This document shows, piece by piece, positions 36,790 through 45,813 of a stretch of 64,000 nucleotides of DNA. The stretch is from Salinibacter grassmerensis (GTDB lineage: Bacteria > Bacteroidota > Rhodothermia > Rhodothermales > Salinibacteraceae). The notes below the pieces were generated by a model. The model was not told the DNA's origin, searched no databases, and saw only the letters and a list, made by a program, of their open reading frames with translations. How positions within the stretch are numbered: position 1 is the first letter of the stretch; each line of letters starts with the position of its first letter. The stretch covers positions 1 through 64,000 of the forward strand of contig NZ_CAMTTF010000003.1 in the NCBI RefSeq assembly GCF_947077765.1, read 5' to 3'. Made by a program: the position numbers and the translations under genes.

Positions 36790-37434
36790 CTAGTTGCGGG
36801 GAATTTGCACGCTGGAGGCGGGGCGTGTCGTGACGGTGGGGCGCTGCTGCAGCCAGCGCACGTACCCAAACGACTGGTCGGGGGCCAGGGAGACCGGTAG
36901 CGTCTCGTCCAGCACGACCGCGCCGGCCGCCGTAAGCGTATCCACGAGGCCCGCCACAGGCCCTTCGGCTTCCAGGCAGAAGGTCCAGGCGGTCTCCTCA
37001 TCGGCCTCGACCGTCGTCAGTTCGGCTTCAAGAGTCGCCGCAGGCGTCGTGGGGAGGCGTTCTGTCAGGGCAGACTGCTCCCCCGGAGCAAACGACAACT
37101 GACGGCGTGTCTTCTTTACGGGCACCCACAGGTCCGTGGGGTCGTCGTCCCACAGGTGGGACGCAGAGTCCGCCAGATCCAGGGTCCATTTTCCCCACTG
37201 CTCACAGCGCCCGCTCGCCGCGTCGCTGAAAGCAGTGCTGAGCGGTCCGGCGAGGCGCCGCTTGATCTGGAGCTGGCCGTCTCGCATTTTCAGGTTGAGG
37301 GCAGGGTCCTCTGCGGGAAGATACAGGTCGGTCTGGGTGAAGGTCTCGACGGGGCCCAACGCGGCGAACCATTTGTGGAGGGCGTCGGGGAGGGGGGCAG
37401 GGCCGAACCAGCGGGCTTCGAGGGTGATCGTCAT
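36790..37434 (-). CDS. CYTH-like hypothetical protein
   Basis: The 214-residue soluble protein starts MTITLEARWFGPAPLPDALHKWF. It continues TDLYLPAEDPALNLKMRDGQLQIKRRL, which looks like the CYTH pattern (xDxYL ... lkxRxxxxxxIKRR) of triphosphate tunnel enzymes. Later acidic strands, LEAELTTVEADEETAWTFCLEAEG, fit the tunnel fold. The usual leading ExExK is not clear, so a catalytic role is uncertain. It is divergent from the large envelope protein gene at 37595. Confidence 0.55.
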   Translation of the reverse strand: MTITLEARWFGPAPLPDALHKWFAALGPVETFTQTDLYLPAEDPALNLKMRDGQLQIKRRLAGPLSTAFSDAASGRCEQWGKWTLDLADSASHLWDDDPTDLWVPVKKTRRQLSFAPGEQSALTERLPTTPAATLEAELTTVEADEETAWTFCLEAEGPVAGLVDTLTAAGAVVLDETLPVSLAPDQSFGYVRWLQQRPTVTTRPASSVQIPRN

Positions 37435-37594: not shown

Positions 37595-40573
37595 ATGTCT
37601 CAAGTCCTTCGTCTCGTTCGGTCCTGGATTGTCAAGCCCTCGCCGGCCCTTCTCCGGTGGAGCGTTATAGGGGGACTGGTGGGGAGCCTCTGCCTGGTGT
37701 GGGGGGCGCGTCCTGGGGCGGCGCAACGAGCAACGCAGGGCGCCAGCGACGTGTATTCCGTGACCTACCGGCCGCCCGACGTGGAGTACACGACCTACCC
37801 CGGCGACCACTTCGACCTCATCGTTCAAGACGGGGTGGAGGACACCGCGTGGCGCATCCGAGAAGCCCTGGAGCGCACCCGAGAGGGCACGACCGACCTC
37901 ATGGGAGTCCGTTCGTCGATCCATATGCCGGTGGTGGTAGATGGCTTTTCGGACCGGTCGAACGGGTTCGTCACGCCCTTCCCGTTCAAACAAGAGATTG
38001 AAGCCCCGAGTCTTCGGGCCGATGCCCTCGTTGCCCGTGCTTCCTCCTGGCCGTCAATCGTGGGGTCACACGAACTCGTCCATGCCACACAAGCGGAGAT
38101 TAACTCGGGCTTCGGGCTCGGGTCTGTGGTGCGGTTTTTCGCCCCGGACGTGGCGCGAGCGGGCAACCTGACAGCCCCGCGCGGGCTGCTGGAGGGGGCG
38201 GCCGTTTACCGTGAGAGCCGCATCGAGGAGGGGGCCGGGCGCCTCAACGCGCCCCTCTTCACAATGAAGATGCGGGCCGCCATGTTATCGGACGATCCCT
38301 GGTCGCTCACTCAGATGCTGGCCCCGCCCGCCTACACGCAGCCGTTCAACCGGTTCTACATTGGCGGGGCCCACGCCTTCAAGGCCTGGGCCGAGCAGGG
38401 CGACACCACGAGCACGAAGTTCTTTCAGCGAGCAACGGCCCTCCACAACCAGTTTCCGTTTCTCGGGTTCGGGGTTGGACTGTGGAATGGGCTCGGAGAG
38501 TCCCCCAAACGCATCAGCGAGGATCTTCGGGCGACGCTCCGGGCTGACTACCAGCAGGACCTGAGTCGCCGACGTCCGTTTACGGACGCCCGCCGCATCG
38601 CCGGGCAGCCCGGTCACAACTACCGGCGGCCCTACTGGCTGACTGAGGACACCCTGGTGACCTACCTGCACGGGTACGACGTGCGGCGGGGCTTCTACCG
38701 GGTGAACGCCGAGACTGGGGACCGGTCGCTCATCCGTGTGCAGTCAATCACAGAAGATTACACCTACAGCCTGGGCCGCGACACGAGCGCGCTCTACGCA
38801 TCCCGGTACGTCCCGGATCCGCTGGTGCCCACACAGAATATCGCCGAGGCGGAGCGGGTGGGGCTAAAAGACGGCGCCGCCACCCAGGTAACGGAGGGGG
38901 GGCGTGTCTTTGCACCGGTGGAGGCCCCAAACGACTCTCTCTGGGCGGTTCGGAACGACGGGTCTTTCAGCCAATGGGCGGCCGTTCAGAATCGGACTGC
39001 GAAGTCCCTCACCGACTTCGAGCGGGCGCGGTTTAAGAAAATCGCGCCGTCCCCAGCGGAAAATACGATTGCGGTTCTGCTAAATGTGGACGGCACACAG
39101 CGGCTTTACCGGGTGGACCACCACCGGCGAGACCGGGTCCGACTGCGCCCCTGGATCGGCCTACAGGACGCGGTGATTTATGACGTCAGCTGGGGGCCGG
39201 ACGGTCGCTATCTCCTTTTCGCGGCCGATCTCGACGAGACCCCTGACGTGTTTGCCTTCGACACCAAAGATCACGAGGTCCGGCGCCTGACGAACGTACG
39301 GTTCGGAGCCCTGGAACCGACGTTGTCTCCCGATCGCGAGACGGTCGCCTTCGTCGAGTACCAGCACGAGCGCCACGAGCTCGCGCGGATTCCCTTTCGC
39401 CCACAGGCGGCTCCCCTGGTGGACTCCACGCGAGTTGTCCGGGGCGGAGAGTCGCCTCAGCCGCCGCCCCGCGTGCAGTCCACCGAGACTGCGGACTTGG
39501 GCGCCGGCCGCGCGTACGAGGCATGGCGTCACCTTGCCCCCCGGATGGTCTACCCTACGCTCTCCTACGATCCGGACGAGACCGACCGCCCCGGTGCGGC
39601 TCGCTTCGAGCGCCTTGGGGTGGGCGTCGGGCTAGGGGTGGCCGGCAGCGATCCGCTGGGGCGGTGGCGGTACCAGGGCAACGGGTTTTGGCAAGACGGC
39701 CGGTTGTGGGGCTCGGCGACCGTGCAGACGGGCCGCTGGCTCCTCCGCCCGTCACTGACGGCGTACAACACCCCCGACACGCTCCCGGTCCGACTCGAAA
39801 CTGGGAGAGGGCTGCGTGCCGCACGGATCGGATTTGAAGAGCGGGGCATCGCCCTTGGGACACAAATTCCCATCCGCCTTCAGTCGAACGTGTACCGGAG
39901 CGCACTGTCCCTGTCGCTCGGGGCCGAGTATCGACAAACCCGGTACTTTGGTTCGGCCCTGAACGTGCTGGCAGAGGACCAGGCGGCTCGTCTGGGGCAA
40001 TGGCGGGACCGCATCACCTTGTCCCCGCGCGGGGCGTGGGGGCATCGCGTGCAGCAAAACCCCCGAGATCTGGTTCCCAATCAGGGCGTGGTGGTGCAGT
40101 CCCGTGCCGAAATCGATGCCTGGACGGAGGGCGTGGCGGCGAGTCGGGCCTTGATCTCTGAGGTGGACGTGTACCTCCCGTTGTTCCTGAGAAGTCACAC
40201 TGGGGTGCGGCTGGGGGCCGGTGTGCTGTCCCAAAATGCCGGGGCGGTGCTGGGGACTGATCAGTTCATTCCCCGCGGCTACGAGGATCGATCGCTCGGG
40301 GCAGGGTCGTTTGTGCGAGTTGGGGCGGAAGTCACACAGCCCATCTGGTACATTGACGACGGGTCGACGCTCGTTCCTTTCTACGCGAAGGCGCTCTATG
40401 GCTACGGCTTTGGGCAGGCCCTCACGCGGGTCGACTCGTCCGGGCCGACATACTCTTCGTTCGGGGCAGGAATCGGCTTCCAGTTCCGCTTCTTCTATGC
40501 GCTCGAGTTTGATCTACAGGTTGGCGCTGCGGTTCGGCTTGAGCCAGGAGACGTGGAGCCCGTGTGGCGCTAG
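37595..40573 (+). CDS. Predicted peptidase-propeller-outer-membrane barrel protein
   Basis: The 992-residue protein has an N-terminal signal or anchor (LLRWSVIGGLVGSLCLVWG...GAAQ). Residues ~55-300 look like a gluzincin peptidase, with GSHELVHATQ (His159, Glu160, His163) and a third-ligand candidate Glu200 in LLEGAAVYRES. Residues ~340-640 repeat PD40/TolB-like blades: DVSWGPDGRYLLFAADLDETPDVFAFD and PTLSPDRETVAFVEY. Residues ~680-992 are amphipathic strands typical of an outer-membrane barrel: AGIGFQFRFFYALEFDLQVG. The start is the ATG at 37595. The domain assignments come from motifs, not from a search. Confidence 0.75.
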   Translation: MSQVLRLVRSWIVKPSPALLRWSVIGGLVGSLCLVWGARPGAAQRATQGASDVYSVTYRPPDVEYTTYPGDHFDLIVQDGVEDTAWRIREALERTREGTTDLMGVRSSIHMPVVVDGFSDRSNGFVTPFPFKQEIEAPSLRADALVARASSWPSIVGSHELVHATQAEINSGFGLGSVVRFFAPDVARAGNLTAPRGLLEGAAVYRESRIEEGAGRLNAPLFTMKMRAAMLSDDPWSLTQMLAPPAYTQPFNRFYIGGAHAFKAWAEQGDTTSTKFFQRATALHNQFPFLGFGVGLWNGLGESPKRISEDLRATLRADYQQDLSRRRPFTDARRIAGQPGHNYRRPYWLTEDTLVTYLHGYDVRRGFYRVNAETGDRSLIRVQSITEDYTYSLGRDTSALYASRYVPDPLVPTQNIAEAERVGLKDGAATQVTEGGRVFAPVEAPNDSLWAVRNDGSFSQWAAVQNRTAKSLTDFERARFKKIAPSPAENTIAVLLNVDGTQRLYRVDHHRRDRVRLRPWIGLQDAVIYDVSWGPDGRYLLFAADLDETPDVFAFDTKDHEVRRLTNVRFGALEPTLSPDRETVAFVEYQHERHELARIPFRPQAAPLVDSTRVVRGGESPQPPPRVQSTETADLGAGRAYEAWRHLAPRMVYPTLSYDPDETDRPGAARFERLGVGVGLGVAGSDPLGRWRYQGNGFWQDGRLWGSATVQTGRWLLRPSLTAYNTPDTLPVRLETGRGLRAARIGFEERGIALGTQIPIRLQSNVYRSALSLSLGAEYRQTRYFGSALNVLAEDQAARLGQWRDRITLSPRGAWGHRVQQNPRDLVPNQGVVVQSRAEIDAWTEGVAASRALISEVDVYLPLFLRSHTGVRLGAGVLSQNAGAVLGTDQFIPRGYEDRSLGAGSFVRVGAEVTQPIWYIDDGSTLVPFYAKALYGYGFGQALTRVDSSGPTYSSFGAGIGFQFRFFYALEFDLQVGAAVRLEPGDVEPVWR

Positions 40574-40677
40574 TTTAGGAGTAAGCTCTCTGGGGGTTGG
40601 GCCTGGCTGAACGAACTTGTGCGCGGACGGGGCGTTCACCTCATCGCATTGACTGTTCATCAGTCTACCCCGCCTGT

Positions 40678-41058
40678 ATGGAAACGCTCCGCTGTAAGAC
40701 GTGTGGATGTGAGAGTCTGCGTCCGATGCAGGTCGTCTTCGAAGAGGAAGATCAGTTCGACAATCTGCTCGGTGAGGAGCAGGAGTCTCGCTTTTACAGC
40801 TGCCAAGTCTGCGGCGATAACTGGCTGTCCGTGAAGGAAAAGACGGCCGATGGCGAGTGCACCATTACGTTTGTTCACCAAATGGAGACCTCTCCCATTC
40901 TGAAGCGTGTGGCCCACATGTCGAACGCAGTCGTCATCTCCGACGACAGCGTTGACGAGTGGGAATACTTTAAAGGGGACGAACTGGTCGACGAAGACGA
41001 GTGGGAGGACCTCCTTTCGGATCGACGCGACACGCTCAAAGCCACATGCGTGAACTAG
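40678..41058 (+). CDS. Zinc-ribbon hypothetical protein, 126 aa
   Basis: The protein starts METLRCKTCGCESLRPMQVVF and has a second cysteine pair in SCQVCGDNWLSV, forming a four-cysteine ribbon. The rest is highly acidic (DDSVDEWEYFKGDELVDEDEWEDLL). I recognise no named family. It may bind nucleic acid or protein in the cytoplasm. A clear terminator follows 45 bases after its stop. Confidence 0.7.
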   Translation: METLRCKTCGCESLRPMQVVFEEEDQFDNLLGEEQESRFYSCQVCGDNWLSVKEKTADGECTITFVHQMETSPILKRVAHMSNAVVISDDSVDEWEYFKGDELVDEDEWEDLLSDRRDTLKATCVN

Positions 41059-41737: not shown

Positions 41738-43843
41738 CTACAGGGCCCAGCGAACCTGTAGTCGAAGCTCGCGACGTCGGGACCCTTTTACCTGATTGAG
41801 CCCGGAGCCGATCGTCGTTCGGTTCTCGTAGCGGGTAACCCCGTACTTTGCCTCAAGGGTCAACGAGGGAAATGGCTCGTACTGCACGAGGGCGTAGGAC
41901 CGTCGGCCTCGATCAAAGAAAACGGGGGCCGAGAAGCTGTATCTGAGGTCATGCTCGTAGGCGTAAATGCGGGCCGGAAACCCGTCCGTATCGAAGAACG
42001 CAATCCGTGCGTCGACGGTGAGAGTAAAATGGGGCCTCCAACGAAGTCCTTGGGACAGGAAGAACCCGCGTGAACGCGTGTGCGGGGTTGTGTGCTGGGA
42101 CAGCTCGAGGCGCGTCCGGGCGGTCAGGGCGTCGCTGAACGAGTACTCGGTATGCCACCGCGTCGAGTACCGGCGTTCTCGCCGAAGGCCTTCGAGGGAC
42201 CGACCGGTACGGCGGTACTCCGTGCCCTCGTCGTCATCCTGCACACGAACCTGAATGTAGCTGGAAAGCCAAGGGCGGGGCTCATAGTCAAGGACCACAC
42301 GCGCCTCCCATCCGGTGGAGGAACGAGGCACATTGAATTGGAGCCAGGGGGCACGGTATTGATCGAGGTAGGCCCCAATGCTCCACCTCGGGGCCAGTTG
42401 GAGTTGCAGGCCCGTGTAAACGCCCATCTCGTTCTGTGGCCGGCTCCCGTCCCCGAACGCATTGCCGTAAAACGACGCAAAGTCGGACGGATACCGACGT
42501 CCCATTACGACCGCTTCGGCGTAGTCGCCGTCCAGCGCGGCGCCCAAGAGGGCGCCATAGGATCCGCGAGGAGAACGAGCAGCTTCGCCGAACAGGGCGT
42601 AGTCCCCAAGCAGGACGGTTCCGTACGTCCCAATCATTGATGCTTTGTCCCCCGCCACCCGAAACCGTCGGTAGGGCCGGTCACCAGGCCGAAGTGGCCG
42701 TGAGAAGCGGGCCTGATAGCCCGTGATCCCGAGGTGGAGCCCAGGCCGGCGGTACGCCAATGCGCCGCCGATGGTCGTTTCGCCAAAGGCACCTTTGCGC
42801 GCAAGTTCACTCGGGGTACGGTGCTGTCCCCCGCCGGATAGGGTGCGGACCGGAAGTGGGCCGTCGGTGCCCGCAAAAGAAGAGTCGACCGACGCGTCCC
42901 GGTTTCGACGCGAGGCAAATGCGGTGAGAGACAATTCGCCGGGCAGTCCAATGGTGGCCGCGGCCCCGCGAAAAAACGAGGTCTCCGAGGCTGAGCGGTA
43001 GGGGCGAATGCCGCGGCCGCGCTTCTGGGCCGGGGCGACTGGGTCGCGTCCCTTTCCGAACCGAAGGCCCTGCCAGAGGGCGATGCCCTGCCCAAACTGG
43101 GCCGTGAAGTCGCCGAGGACGAGCGTTTCGAGGCGGCCGAGATCGCGGAGGGCAAGGCTTCCAGTGATGTGGTCAAACCCATAGGTCTGTGCTTGGGGAG
43201 CCCACCGGACTGGCTCGCCGGGATCCTTGTCGAGCGTCAGGGCGAGCTGAAGGCGGCGCTCGTGAGCGAGCTGGAGACGGGTTGTGAGGCGACCCGGGGG
43301 GCCGAGAAATCGATCCTCGTGGAACCCGCGTCCCAAATCGAGCCGCCGTGTAAATCGCTGGGTAAGGTGGAAGCTAAGGTTCGACGTGATTGTGTTGAAC
43401 GTGGGAAAGATCGACTGGGAGGTCGCCTTCTCGAGCCGCACGAAGGGGCGAACCGACTGAACCGTTGCGGGTCCAATGCCGTCTACAGCCCGCAGATCTC
43501 CCACTTCATCGAAGAGCCCGTTGTCAGTCCGGTGCTGCACGATGCGGTGGGCGTCTCTCGACGTAAGATTGGGCAACATCGAGAGGTCGGCGGCGGAGGC
43601 TTGATTGAGGGCGAGGGGCCGCGTCTTCAGGTCGGCAAGATGCTCGGCTGCCAGCGTGGCCGTACGGTCCGTAGTCCCGAGCGCATCCAAAATGGGTTCG
43701 AGACGCGGACCGAGATCCATGGTATCCGCCTTCAGCGTATCCGTGTGAGGCTGAGCAGTGGTGCAGATTGGTCCAGCGAAAAGAACGAGCAGGCCGATCT
43801 GGGCTGGCAGGACAAGTCGAGAGATGGGCCCTATGGAAGACAT
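41738..43843 (-). CDS. Helix-hairpin-helix protein with predicted outer-membrane barrel
   Basis: The 701-residue protein starts MSSIGPISRLVLPAQIGLLVLF, a signal peptide. Residues ~78-137 form a tandem ComEA-like HhH unit: LALNQASAADLSMLPNLTSRDA and GDLRAVDGIGPATVQSV. The remainder is long amphipathic strands with aromatic girdles (SYIQVRVQDDDEGTEYR, DLRYSFSAPVFFDRGRRSYAL) and ends in VRWAL, a barrel C-terminus. Similar HhH-barrel proteins exist in Bacteroidota with no known role. The start follows the stop of the PorV-like gene by 10 bases, so the two are an operon. An upstream frame extends into that gene and is not used. Confidence 0.75.
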   Translation of the reverse strand: MSSIGPISRLVLPAQIGLLVLFAGPICTTAQPHTDTLKADTMDLGPRLEPILDALGTTDRTATLAAEHLADLKTRPLALNQASAADLSMLPNLTSRDAHRIVQHRTDNGLFDEVGDLRAVDGIGPATVQSVRPFVRLEKATSQSIFPTFNTITSNLSFHLTQRFTRRLDLGRGFHEDRFLGPPGRLTTRLQLAHERRLQLALTLDKDPGEPVRWAPQAQTYGFDHITGSLALRDLGRLETLVLGDFTAQFGQGIALWQGLRFGKGRDPVAPAQKRGRGIRPYRSASETSFFRGAAATIGLPGELSLTAFASRRNRDASVDSSFAGTDGPLPVRTLSGGGQHRTPSELARKGAFGETTIGGALAYRRPGLHLGITGYQARFSRPLRPGDRPYRRFRVAGDKASMIGTYGTVLLGDYALFGEAARSPRGSYGALLGAALDGDYAEAVVMGRRYPSDFASFYGNAFGDGSRPQNEMGVYTGLQLQLAPRWSIGAYLDQYRAPWLQFNVPRSSTGWEARVVLDYEPRPWLSSYIQVRVQDDDEGTEYRRTGRSLEGLRRERRYSTRWHTEYSFSDALTARTRLELSQHTTPHTRSRGFFLSQGLRWRPHFTLTVDARIAFFDTDGFPARIYAYEHDLRYSFSAPVFFDRGRRSYALVQYEPFPSLTLEAKYGVTRYENRTTIGSGLNQVKGSRRRELRLQVRWAL

Positions 43844-43853
43844 GGAAACACGG

Positions 43854-44681
43854 CTACCAATGAACGTCCAGCGACGCGGAGGGCGTCCAGCCGAGTTCGG
43901 CGTGTTGTTCGGCGGCAACGTGTGCCTGCAGCCAGTCGAGGTGAAGGCCAACGCCCCCGGTGAACCGGGTGGGAACGGTCGTGACACCAGCGCGAAGTGC
44001 GATCAAAGACAGAGGGCGGACTTCGAGTCCGCCCCGCACCGCGGCGGGAAAGGCGCGATCCTTGAACACGTCCACGAGGACCCGAAGATGATCGCCCGCG
44101 CGGTACTGGAGGCCTACCGATAGGGTTTGGGGCAACGGCTCTCCCTCGACCAGCGAAGGGCCATTGACGTTCGTGGCGTGGGCCCCCAGGTCCAGAGACG
44201 ACAAGAGCGGGAGGAGAAGGCCGAGGTGCAGTCCGACCGTGGCGGTGCCCCCGTACCCCTCAATGCGTGTATGGTAGTACCGTCCCGTCACGCCGAGTTG
44301 CATCCGACGGCTGGTACCAAAGGAGAGCCCGCGCGCATACCCCAGACTGTAGTGAATCTCTCGATACCCGTCGCCCCCGAAGGTGCTGGCGCCGGCCGAG
44401 ACGCTCCCCCACGCAGCAGGCCAGGTGCCCGACACCGATCCGTACCGGAGGGCCGATAGTCCGAACGCCTCCCGGGCGAAGAACGAGACCACTCGGTGGG
44501 TGCGTCGGGCCGCCGCGGCCGGATTGGCGTGCACGCCAGACGTCGTTGTGAGTGCGGTCGCGGCGTAGCCGAGGGCGGACGATCGAGCACCGCCGAACAA
44601 GTCGTACGTGGATTGCCCGTGCGCCGGGGCCGGTCCGACCACGAGGCACCCAACAATGAAAAGCCCCAAGAGATGACGCAT
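43854..44681 (-). CDS. PorV/PorQ-like outer-membrane protein
   Basis: The 275-residue protein has a signal peptide (MRHLLGLFIVGCLVVGPAPA...HGQ). It then has the family opening: STYDLFGGARSSALGYAATAL, GVHANPAAAARR. Repeated barrel strands follow: AWGSVSAGASTFGGDGYREIHYSLGYARG and LGVTGRYYHTRIEGYGGTATVGL. PorQ and PorV are FadL-type barrels linked to type IX secretion, but related UPF0164 proteins have other roles. It is the first gene of a pair with the HhH-barrel protein and diverges from the DUF4835 gene. Confidence 0.72.
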   Translation of the reverse strand: MRHLLGLFIVGCLVVGPAPAHGQSTYDLFGGARSSALGYAATALTTTSGVHANPAAAARRTHRVVSFFAREAFGLSALRYGSVSGTWPAAWGSVSAGASTFGGDGYREIHYSLGYARGLSFGTSRRMQLGVTGRYYHTRIEGYGGTATVGLHLGLLLPLLSSLDLGAHATNVNGPSLVEGEPLPQTLSVGLQYRAGDHLRVLVDVFKDRAFPAAVRGGLEVRPLSLIALRAGVTTVPTRFTGGVGLHLDWLQAHVAAEQHAELGWTPSASLDVHW

Positions 44682-44753: not shown

Positions 44754-44910
44754 AAAAATGGACCGTGCAGCCGAGGGACACGAGACAGGGATTTTGGTCT
44801 GCCGAGACGGCTGCAAGACGGGGCCTGAGTTAGAAACCTCACGGCGAAGAGAGAGGTAGCATTGTCCCTTCACGCGTTTACCATCCGTCCCCTCCGCAAC
44901 TGTGTTTAGA

Positions 44911-45813
44911 ATGCCGACGGCCGTGTGGGGGCTTGCTGTCTTATTAGGGACGCTCTCGTTCGCGCCCCCGGCCGATGGACAAGAGTTGCGCTGCCGCGTC
45001 CAGATTGACGACTCGCAAATCAGCGGCGCCGAATCGGAGTTCGAGTTTCTCGACGATCTCGAACGTCAGGTCCGAGAGTACATGAACGAGCGCTCCTGGA
45101 CCGACGACGAGTTTCTGCCCCGCGAGCGCATTTCCTGCTCGATGCAGATTATCCTTCAAGAGTCGGTTAGTCTGTCCGAGTTTCGGGCCCGGCTCATCGT
45201 GACGACCCGGCGGCCCATTTACGGAACGTCGCAGTCTTCGGTCGTCGCCCGCGTAAACGACCCAGAATGGCGCTTCGAGTACAGCCGAGGCTCGTCCCTC
45301 AACCATGACCTCGACCGGTACGACCCACTGACGTCGGTGCTGGACTTCTACGCCTATCTGATCCTCGGCTACGACTACGACACGTTCAGTCCGCTCGGCG
45401 GAGCGCCCTTCTTCGACCGAGCGCAGACCGTGGCCGATCAGGCGGAGGGGAGTGGAGATCCCGGGTGGTCCTCCGTGGGCACCCAGCAGACCCGCGTGCA
45501 GCTTCTCTCCAACCTGCGTGCCCAACGCCATGAGCCCCTGCGCCGAGTGTACTACGAGTATCATCGAAAAGGCCTTGATCGGTTTGTGCAGGACACCGAG
45601 GCGGCCCGGGAGACCCTGATGGAGGTGCTCCGGACGCTCCGAACGGCCAGCGATCGTCTGTCTCAGTCCTATGCCCTGAATCTCTTTTTCGCGACGAAAA
45701 ACCAGGAGCTGACCGCGATCTTCGAGGAAAGCGATGTTGAGAGTCAGGCGCAGCGTCTCCTCGTTCAGATGGACCCCTCTCACTCCTCGCAGTACAACCG
45801 TCTCACGGAGTGA
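44911..45813 (+). CDS. DUF4835 (PorD-like) secreted protein
   Basis: The 300-residue protein has a signal peptide (MPTAVWGLAVLLGTLSFAPPADGQ). It then has the DUF4835 features: an early ELRCRVQIDDSQISG, NERSWTDDEFLPRERISCSMQIIL, VVARVNDPEWRFEYS and LTSVLDFYAYLILGYDYDTFSPLGG. The length matches the family. Members are annotated in some Bacteroidota as the type IX secretion component PorD; that function is inferred from the family. A GTG at 44902 would add three residues. It lies between the divergent PorV-like gene and recA. Confidence 0.85.
   Translation: MPTAVWGLAVLLGTLSFAPPADGQELRCRVQIDDSQISGAESEFEFLDDLERQVREYMNERSWTDDEFLPRERISCSMQIILQESVSLSEFRARLIVTTRRPIYGTSQSSVVARVNDPEWRFEYSRGSSLNHDLDRYDPLTSVLDFYAYLILGYDYDTFSPLGGAPFFDRAQTVADQAEGSGDPGWSSVGTQQTRVQLLSNLRAQRHEPLRRVYYEYHRKGLDRFVQDTEAARETLMEVLRTLRTASDRLSQSYALNLFFATKNQELTAIFEESDVESQAQRLLVQMDPSHSSQYNRLTE

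Follow-up and report, generated by a model that had tools for sequence, protein, structure and literature searches.

The question raised by this locus is what a single protein would do with a peptidase head, a β-propeller and an outer-membrane barrel in one chain. The window, that is, the whole 64,000-nucleotide stretch of Salinibacter grassmerensis DNA that was analysed, contains an open reading frame of this design at 37595-40573 (+), beginning with ATG, the features of which are collected in Table 1. The preliminary description had presented its product as a protein of three parts, and this was borne out for each of them: conservation identified the head with its HExxH motif and downstream Glu, Pfam and TIGR02800 matches identified the TolB/PD40 propeller, and a structural model identified the C-terminal transmembrane barrel. 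The positions and residues that it had given (HELVH at 159-163, Glu200 in E-G-A-A-V-Y-R-E) are correct as well. The signal region, as read by eye, contains no lipobox in residues 1-43.

Table 1. Features of the three-part protein gene in the window.
Feature	Position	Strand	Evidence
Complete gene for 992 aa with signal peptide, peptidase head (HExxH/Glu), propeller (PD40/TolB) and Omp85-type barrel	37595..40573	+	Open frame, full-length relatives
Probable signal peptide, residues 1-43	37595..37723	+	Sequence read by eye: hydrophobic stretch, then ARPGAAQ
Probable peptidase head, about residues 48-330	37736..38584	+	Profile match to A2-branch head; invariant columns
HELVH, residues 159-163, with His159 and His163 as putative zinc ligands and Glu160 as putative catalytic residue	38069..38083	+	Invariance of H159, E160 and H163
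EGAAVYRE, residues 200-207, with Glu200 as putative third zinc ligand	38192..38215	+	Invariance; A2 alignment
R253-F-Y255, candidate transition-state residues	38351..38359	+	Invariance of R253 and Y255; analogy with the gluzincin Tyr
β-propeller, about residues 340-605	38612..39409	+	PF07676 PD40, TIGR02800 and TolB structure matches
Linker without conservation, residues 606-640	39410..39514	+	No column at 90%
Predicted Omp85-type 16-stranded barrel, residues 641-992	39515..40570	+	AF2 model, Foldseek, ortholog PF01103 matches
PRGY, residues 893-896, predicted counterpart of the Omp85 loop-6 (V/I)RG(F/Y) motif	40271..40282	+	Position in the barrel model

The head of the protein carries the signature of the MA(E) gluzincins, HExxH with a downstream Glu, although its peptidase region did not match any Pfam family, including Peptidase_MA_2 (PF13485), at E ≤ 10. 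The assignment of this region as a probable zinc protease of the gluzincin type rests on relatives. We compared the window gene's own branch (A1, aligned as 48 full-length members) with a second branch, A2, whose proteins of about 1050 residues contain HELVH and [NI]EGxAEY in the same domain order, and match Peptidase_MA_2 in 8 of 11 cases (best 3.7e-13), PD40 in 11/11 and Omp85 in 2/11. The A1 and A2 heads could be aligned with each other (hhalign 98.8%, E 8.7e-17), and in this alignment the two HExxH motifs coincide and Glu200 pairs with the Glu of [NI]EGxAEY. A motif of the HExxH type would be expected by chance only 0.013 times in a protein with the composition of the 992-residue query. 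Moreover, H159, E160, H163, E200, R253 and Y255 are invariant in all 48 A1 members, down to 23% identity, and so are G201, A203 and E207. Altogether, 25 columns of the A1 alignment are invariant, 18 of them in the head (residues 48-330), three in the propeller and four in the barrel, and in the linker (residues 606-640) no column is conserved at 90%. The signature proposed in the preliminary description is supported, and the invariance of the six residues is the pattern that would come from an active enzyme, unlike a relic. By analogy with gluzincins, R253 and Y255 are candidate transition-state residues. The full-length AlphaFold2 model, built from only four sequences, had a pLDDT of 41.9 (about 30 in the head region), and thus it was not used to assess the geometry of the putative zinc site.

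The propeller gave the sole Pfam match in the protein (PF07676 PD40, 24.1 bits with a cut-off of 20.9). It was also recognised in part by the NCBIfam TolB model TIGR02800 (residues 486-599, E 1.7e-9), and the family profile matched TolB structures at 3e-18. Despite this similarity of the propeller sequence to that of TolB, the protein is not TolB, as its TIGR02800 score of 37.1 bits is far under the equivalog cut-off of 343.15. Tricorn proteases of about 1060 residues (L061), which were also considered, have the propeller alone in common with it and were excluded.

The barrel region, like the head, did not match any Pfam family at E ≤ 10. When residues 636-992 were modelled alone by AlphaFold2 from four sequences, the model (pLDDT 72.3, pTM 0.63) had about 16 strands by manual count in the C-terminal approximately 350 residues, in support of the barrel that had been proposed from the sequence. 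The 50 matches listed in a Foldseek search of PDB were all to the Omp85 superfamily (E 1e-5 to 6e-4), with Sam50, TamA, BamA, FhaC, CdiB and Toc75 among the proteins listed. Their TM-scores were low, about 0.4, probably owing to the thin alignment behind the model; the topology was recognised as that of Omp85, but the model itself is rough. VIA-align did not discriminate between barrel types, as it ranked generic porins equal to Omp85 proteins (Z about 15 for MOMP and CymA, about 14 for Omp85 proteins). In Omp85 proteins, as the structures of BamA and FhaC illustrate, loop 6 with its (V/I)RG(F/Y) motif lies between strands 11 and 12. Our model has a PRGY sequence, with P in place of V/I, at the corresponding site: model residues 258-261 fall between the eleventh and twelfth predicted strands. 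Many A1 relatives retain PRG[YFW] and others lack it, suggesting that the function of the barrel may have drifted in a part of the family.

Sequence comparisons of relatives point in the same direction. Two orthologs, 2/48 A1 members in all, exceed the PF01103 Omp85 cut-off of 24 bits: L028 with 29.6 bits (profile positions 48-292) and L040 with 24.2 bits. Direct comparison of the A1 barrel with local Omp85 sequences, by contrast, gave weak matches (hhalign E 0.002-0.006, and likewise weak ones with hmmsearch). The A2 barrel matched Salmonella BamA (5or1) at 9.6e-8 in an alignment of 273 profile positions; with local Omp85 sequences, hhalign gave 97.6%. Pfam scans of the query and its relatives revealed no POTRA family, which does not exclude membership in the Omp85 superfamily, since subfamilies with non-POTRA architectures are described in the text of the 2014 survey (PMC4104836). 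The grounds for the assignment to Omp85, a feature that had escaped the first reading of this sequence, are the barrel model, the position of loop 6, the two ortholog matches and a paralog, L096, described below. With a barrel of this type, the protein is related to BamA, TamA, FhaC and PlpD, and its barrel would belong to a class whose members insert other membrane proteins or transport them (as in BamA, TamA, FhaC and Sam50).

At least six members of the family, the window gene included, are encoded in the same genome: contig C6 has two A1 paralogs, C1 and C2 have two A2 members between them, and the sixth is L096. The latter (C1:478206-480983, a 1076-residue frame) contains HELTH, matches PD40 with 52.4 bits and Omp85 with 29.1 bits (cut-off 24), and has a weak Peptidase_MA_2 match in the same frame; it is the clearest single proof of the three-part fusion. 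The window copy is patchy within the genus: the loci L019 and L021, from other genomes of the genus, are closest to orthologs of the paralog on contig C6 (79-81% to L005), and are only 41% identical to the window gene.

The three relatives found among the genome contigs searched are 70, 67 and 37% identical to the window protein (70, 67 and 37-48% for full-length relatives). A match to it at 1e-8 was found in 84 of 296 genomes of the phylum, including nearly all of the same class. The A2 branch is present in 101/148 phylum genomes, representing 70 of 82 genera. A further branch, A3 (L139-L161), occurs in other classes of the phylum; its members have HEYRH, HEFRH or HELRH and the same three-part architecture, and they align with A1 over the full length (hhalign 100%, E 6e-66), although their barrel gave no clear sequence match to Omp85 in this analysis. 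All 30 further loci retrieved in the A3 search, some of which repeat members already counted, contain HExxH. Thus, there are at least two branches beyond A1 with the same domain order, and in every family member read the head with HExxH and its downstream Glu is N-terminal to the propeller. No relatives were found in plasmids or in viral contigs. Most genera of the phylum have the three-part design, and several paralogs are encoded per genome; contrary to the preliminary description, which had missed the spread outside halophiles, the design is not restricted to halophilic Rhodothermota.

The neighbourhood of the gene at 37595-40573 showed no evident operon partner. A small downstream protein with Cys-x-x-Cys pairs (40597-41058, +) adjoins the gene in L001, L002, L012, L013 and L022, and is kept beside it in several families of the order; neither Pfam nor NCBIfam gave a match to it. 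The same is true of a 214-aa protein that is encoded divergently from the gene (36790-37434, -) and is 63% conserved in L001 and L002. The frame at 41738-43987 (-), about 60% conserved in the same two loci, shows an odd pairing of a DNA-binding motif with a barrel: a ComEA-like helix-hairpin-helix (HHH_3, residues 126-184) is followed by about 550 residues that resemble an outer-membrane barrel.

The type IX secretion protein PorD (NF052317, 279.7 bits) is encoded at 44902-45813 (+), 4.3 kb downstream of the gene. The two genes are close together here and in L002, and they are no more than 1.5 kb apart in a different family of the order (L027, L029, L030, L032-L034). An obligate link to type IX secretion, suggested by this proximity, was not borne out by the phylum-wide co-occurrence of A2 with SprA: among 148 genomes, 100 had both, 1 had A2 only, 17 had SprA only and 30 had neither. 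Those listed of the 30 genomes with neither belong to two genera of one family, and some ten genera that have SprA are without A2, which argues against such a link.

The N-terminal domains of Omp85 proteins are periplasmic. This, and the finding that the patatin domain of PlpD is periplasmic (PMC11116518), favours the periplasmic side for the head of our protein. From the domain order and such precedent we infer a periplasmic head on an Omp85-type barrel, in which the propeller serves as an adaptor for partners or substrates and the peptidase does the actual work. With moderate confidence, we propose that the protein is a zinc protease anchored in the outer membrane, whose head replaces the POTRA domains, and which serves in the processing or quality control of outer-membrane proteins. 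In this mechanism the protein would be exported and then inserted in the outer membrane by its Omp85-type barrel, so that an active, zinc-binding peptidase head and the propeller would be held in the periplasm, where BamA-type proteins have POTRA domains. The propeller may capture partners or substrates and hand them on to the peptidase. Working at the membrane, the peptidase would process or degrade proteins that are exported or belong to the outer membrane, as if the arrangement of BepA at the BAM complex of E. coli were condensed here in a single polypeptide.

Three other readings were weighed against this one. It is possible, but unlikely, that the barrel brings the peptidase-propeller head of the same chain to the cell surface, by export or display, where the head would trim surface or environmental proteins. 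Such a type Vd-like route was once proposed for PlpD, whose N-terminal passenger and C-terminal Omp85-type barrel were read as a means of surface delivery, according to the text of the 2014 survey (PMC4104836), and several paralogs per genome would fit a diversified use of substrates; however, the N-terminal domain of PlpD was found only in the periplasm (PMC11116518), and this route would require a 16-stranded barrel to let through a folded head of about 550 residues. We consider it rather improbable that the protein is in the first place an assembly or translocation factor, with a BamA/TamA-like insertase or translocase barrel, a BamB-like propeller and a peptidase that clears stalled substrates. 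Membership in Omp85, occurrence in most genera of the phylum and the analogy that Heinz and Lithgow drew between WD40-Omp85 proteins and a BamA-BamB fusion (in the text of PMC4104836) speak for it, but Pfam scans detected no POTRA domain, the loop-6 motif is gone in a part of the family, and the invariant columns are concentrated in the peptidase head rather than in the barrel. Finally, a gluzincin-like fold acting only as a metal-dependent binding or sensing module, as the lack of a direct Pfam match to so diverged a head might suggest, is very unlikely, because HExxH and the downstream Glu are retained across three branches and pure scaffolding needs neither.

Omp85 proteins build the outer membranes of diderm bacteria, mitochondria and chloroplasts. 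With an apparently active protease in a large, unstudied branch of them, outer-membrane assembly and proteolysis would be joined in one molecule. It is possible, but unlikely, that the protein is a one-polypeptide Omp85 machine in which the barrel engages or moves clients and the built-in zinc peptidase cleaves them, a widespread third Omp85 mode beside assembly and translocation in the phylum. In a major phylum the branch reaches most of the genera, and only recently was the BAM complex of this phylum found to be unlike the one in E. coli (PMC12611786).

BepA, an M48 zinc peptidase, sets a precedent for zinc proteolysis at BAM (PMC8423444; PMC13067283). The likeness lies in the role that we propose, the cleavage of outer-membrane proteins by a zinc enzyme at an Omp85 machine; unlike our protein, BepA is a separate periplasmic protein that acts on LptD at BAM, and we claim no membership of its family for the query. 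PF00149 comprises calcineurin-like metallophosphoesterases rather than peptidases, and Pfam found no such domain in our protein. It is the domain of the 'Metallo' subfamily of Omp85 proteins which, as described in the text of the 2014 survey (PMC4104836), resembles the present family in having an enzyme-like N-terminal domain on an Omp85 barrel, and is discussed there in terms of periplasmic quality control. PlpD likewise has an enzymatic N-terminal head on an Omp85 barrel, but its head is of the lipase type and it has one POTRA domain, whereas the query has a head of the zinc-peptidase type and a propeller; in the 2024 paper that placed the PlpD patatin head in the periplasm, the WD40-like and metalloprotease Omp85 subfamilies are still listed as not well characterised (PMC11116518).

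Among the closest known systems is also WD40-Omp85, one of ten Omp85 subfamilies named in the text of Heinz and Lithgow in 2014 (PMC4104836), with an N-terminal propeller most like TolB followed by an Omp85-type barrel and no POTRA domain detected. Our protein has the arrangement that characterises this group, a propeller directly N-terminal to an Omp85 barrel (PD40, TolB-propeller, barrel). The claim that no named family has all three parts holds only in part: the combination of propeller and barrel already had a name, but the main text of that paper makes no mention of a peptidase head, in contrast to the HExxH and Glu head found here. We found nothing in the literature on the three-part architecture beyond the 2014 survey, and no experimental work on propeller-Omp85 fusions; the design has apparently not been described as a protease before. 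A protease head would extend the view of the WD40-Omp85 group given in the text of that survey, where its members were compared only with a BamA-BamB fusion (PMC4104836).
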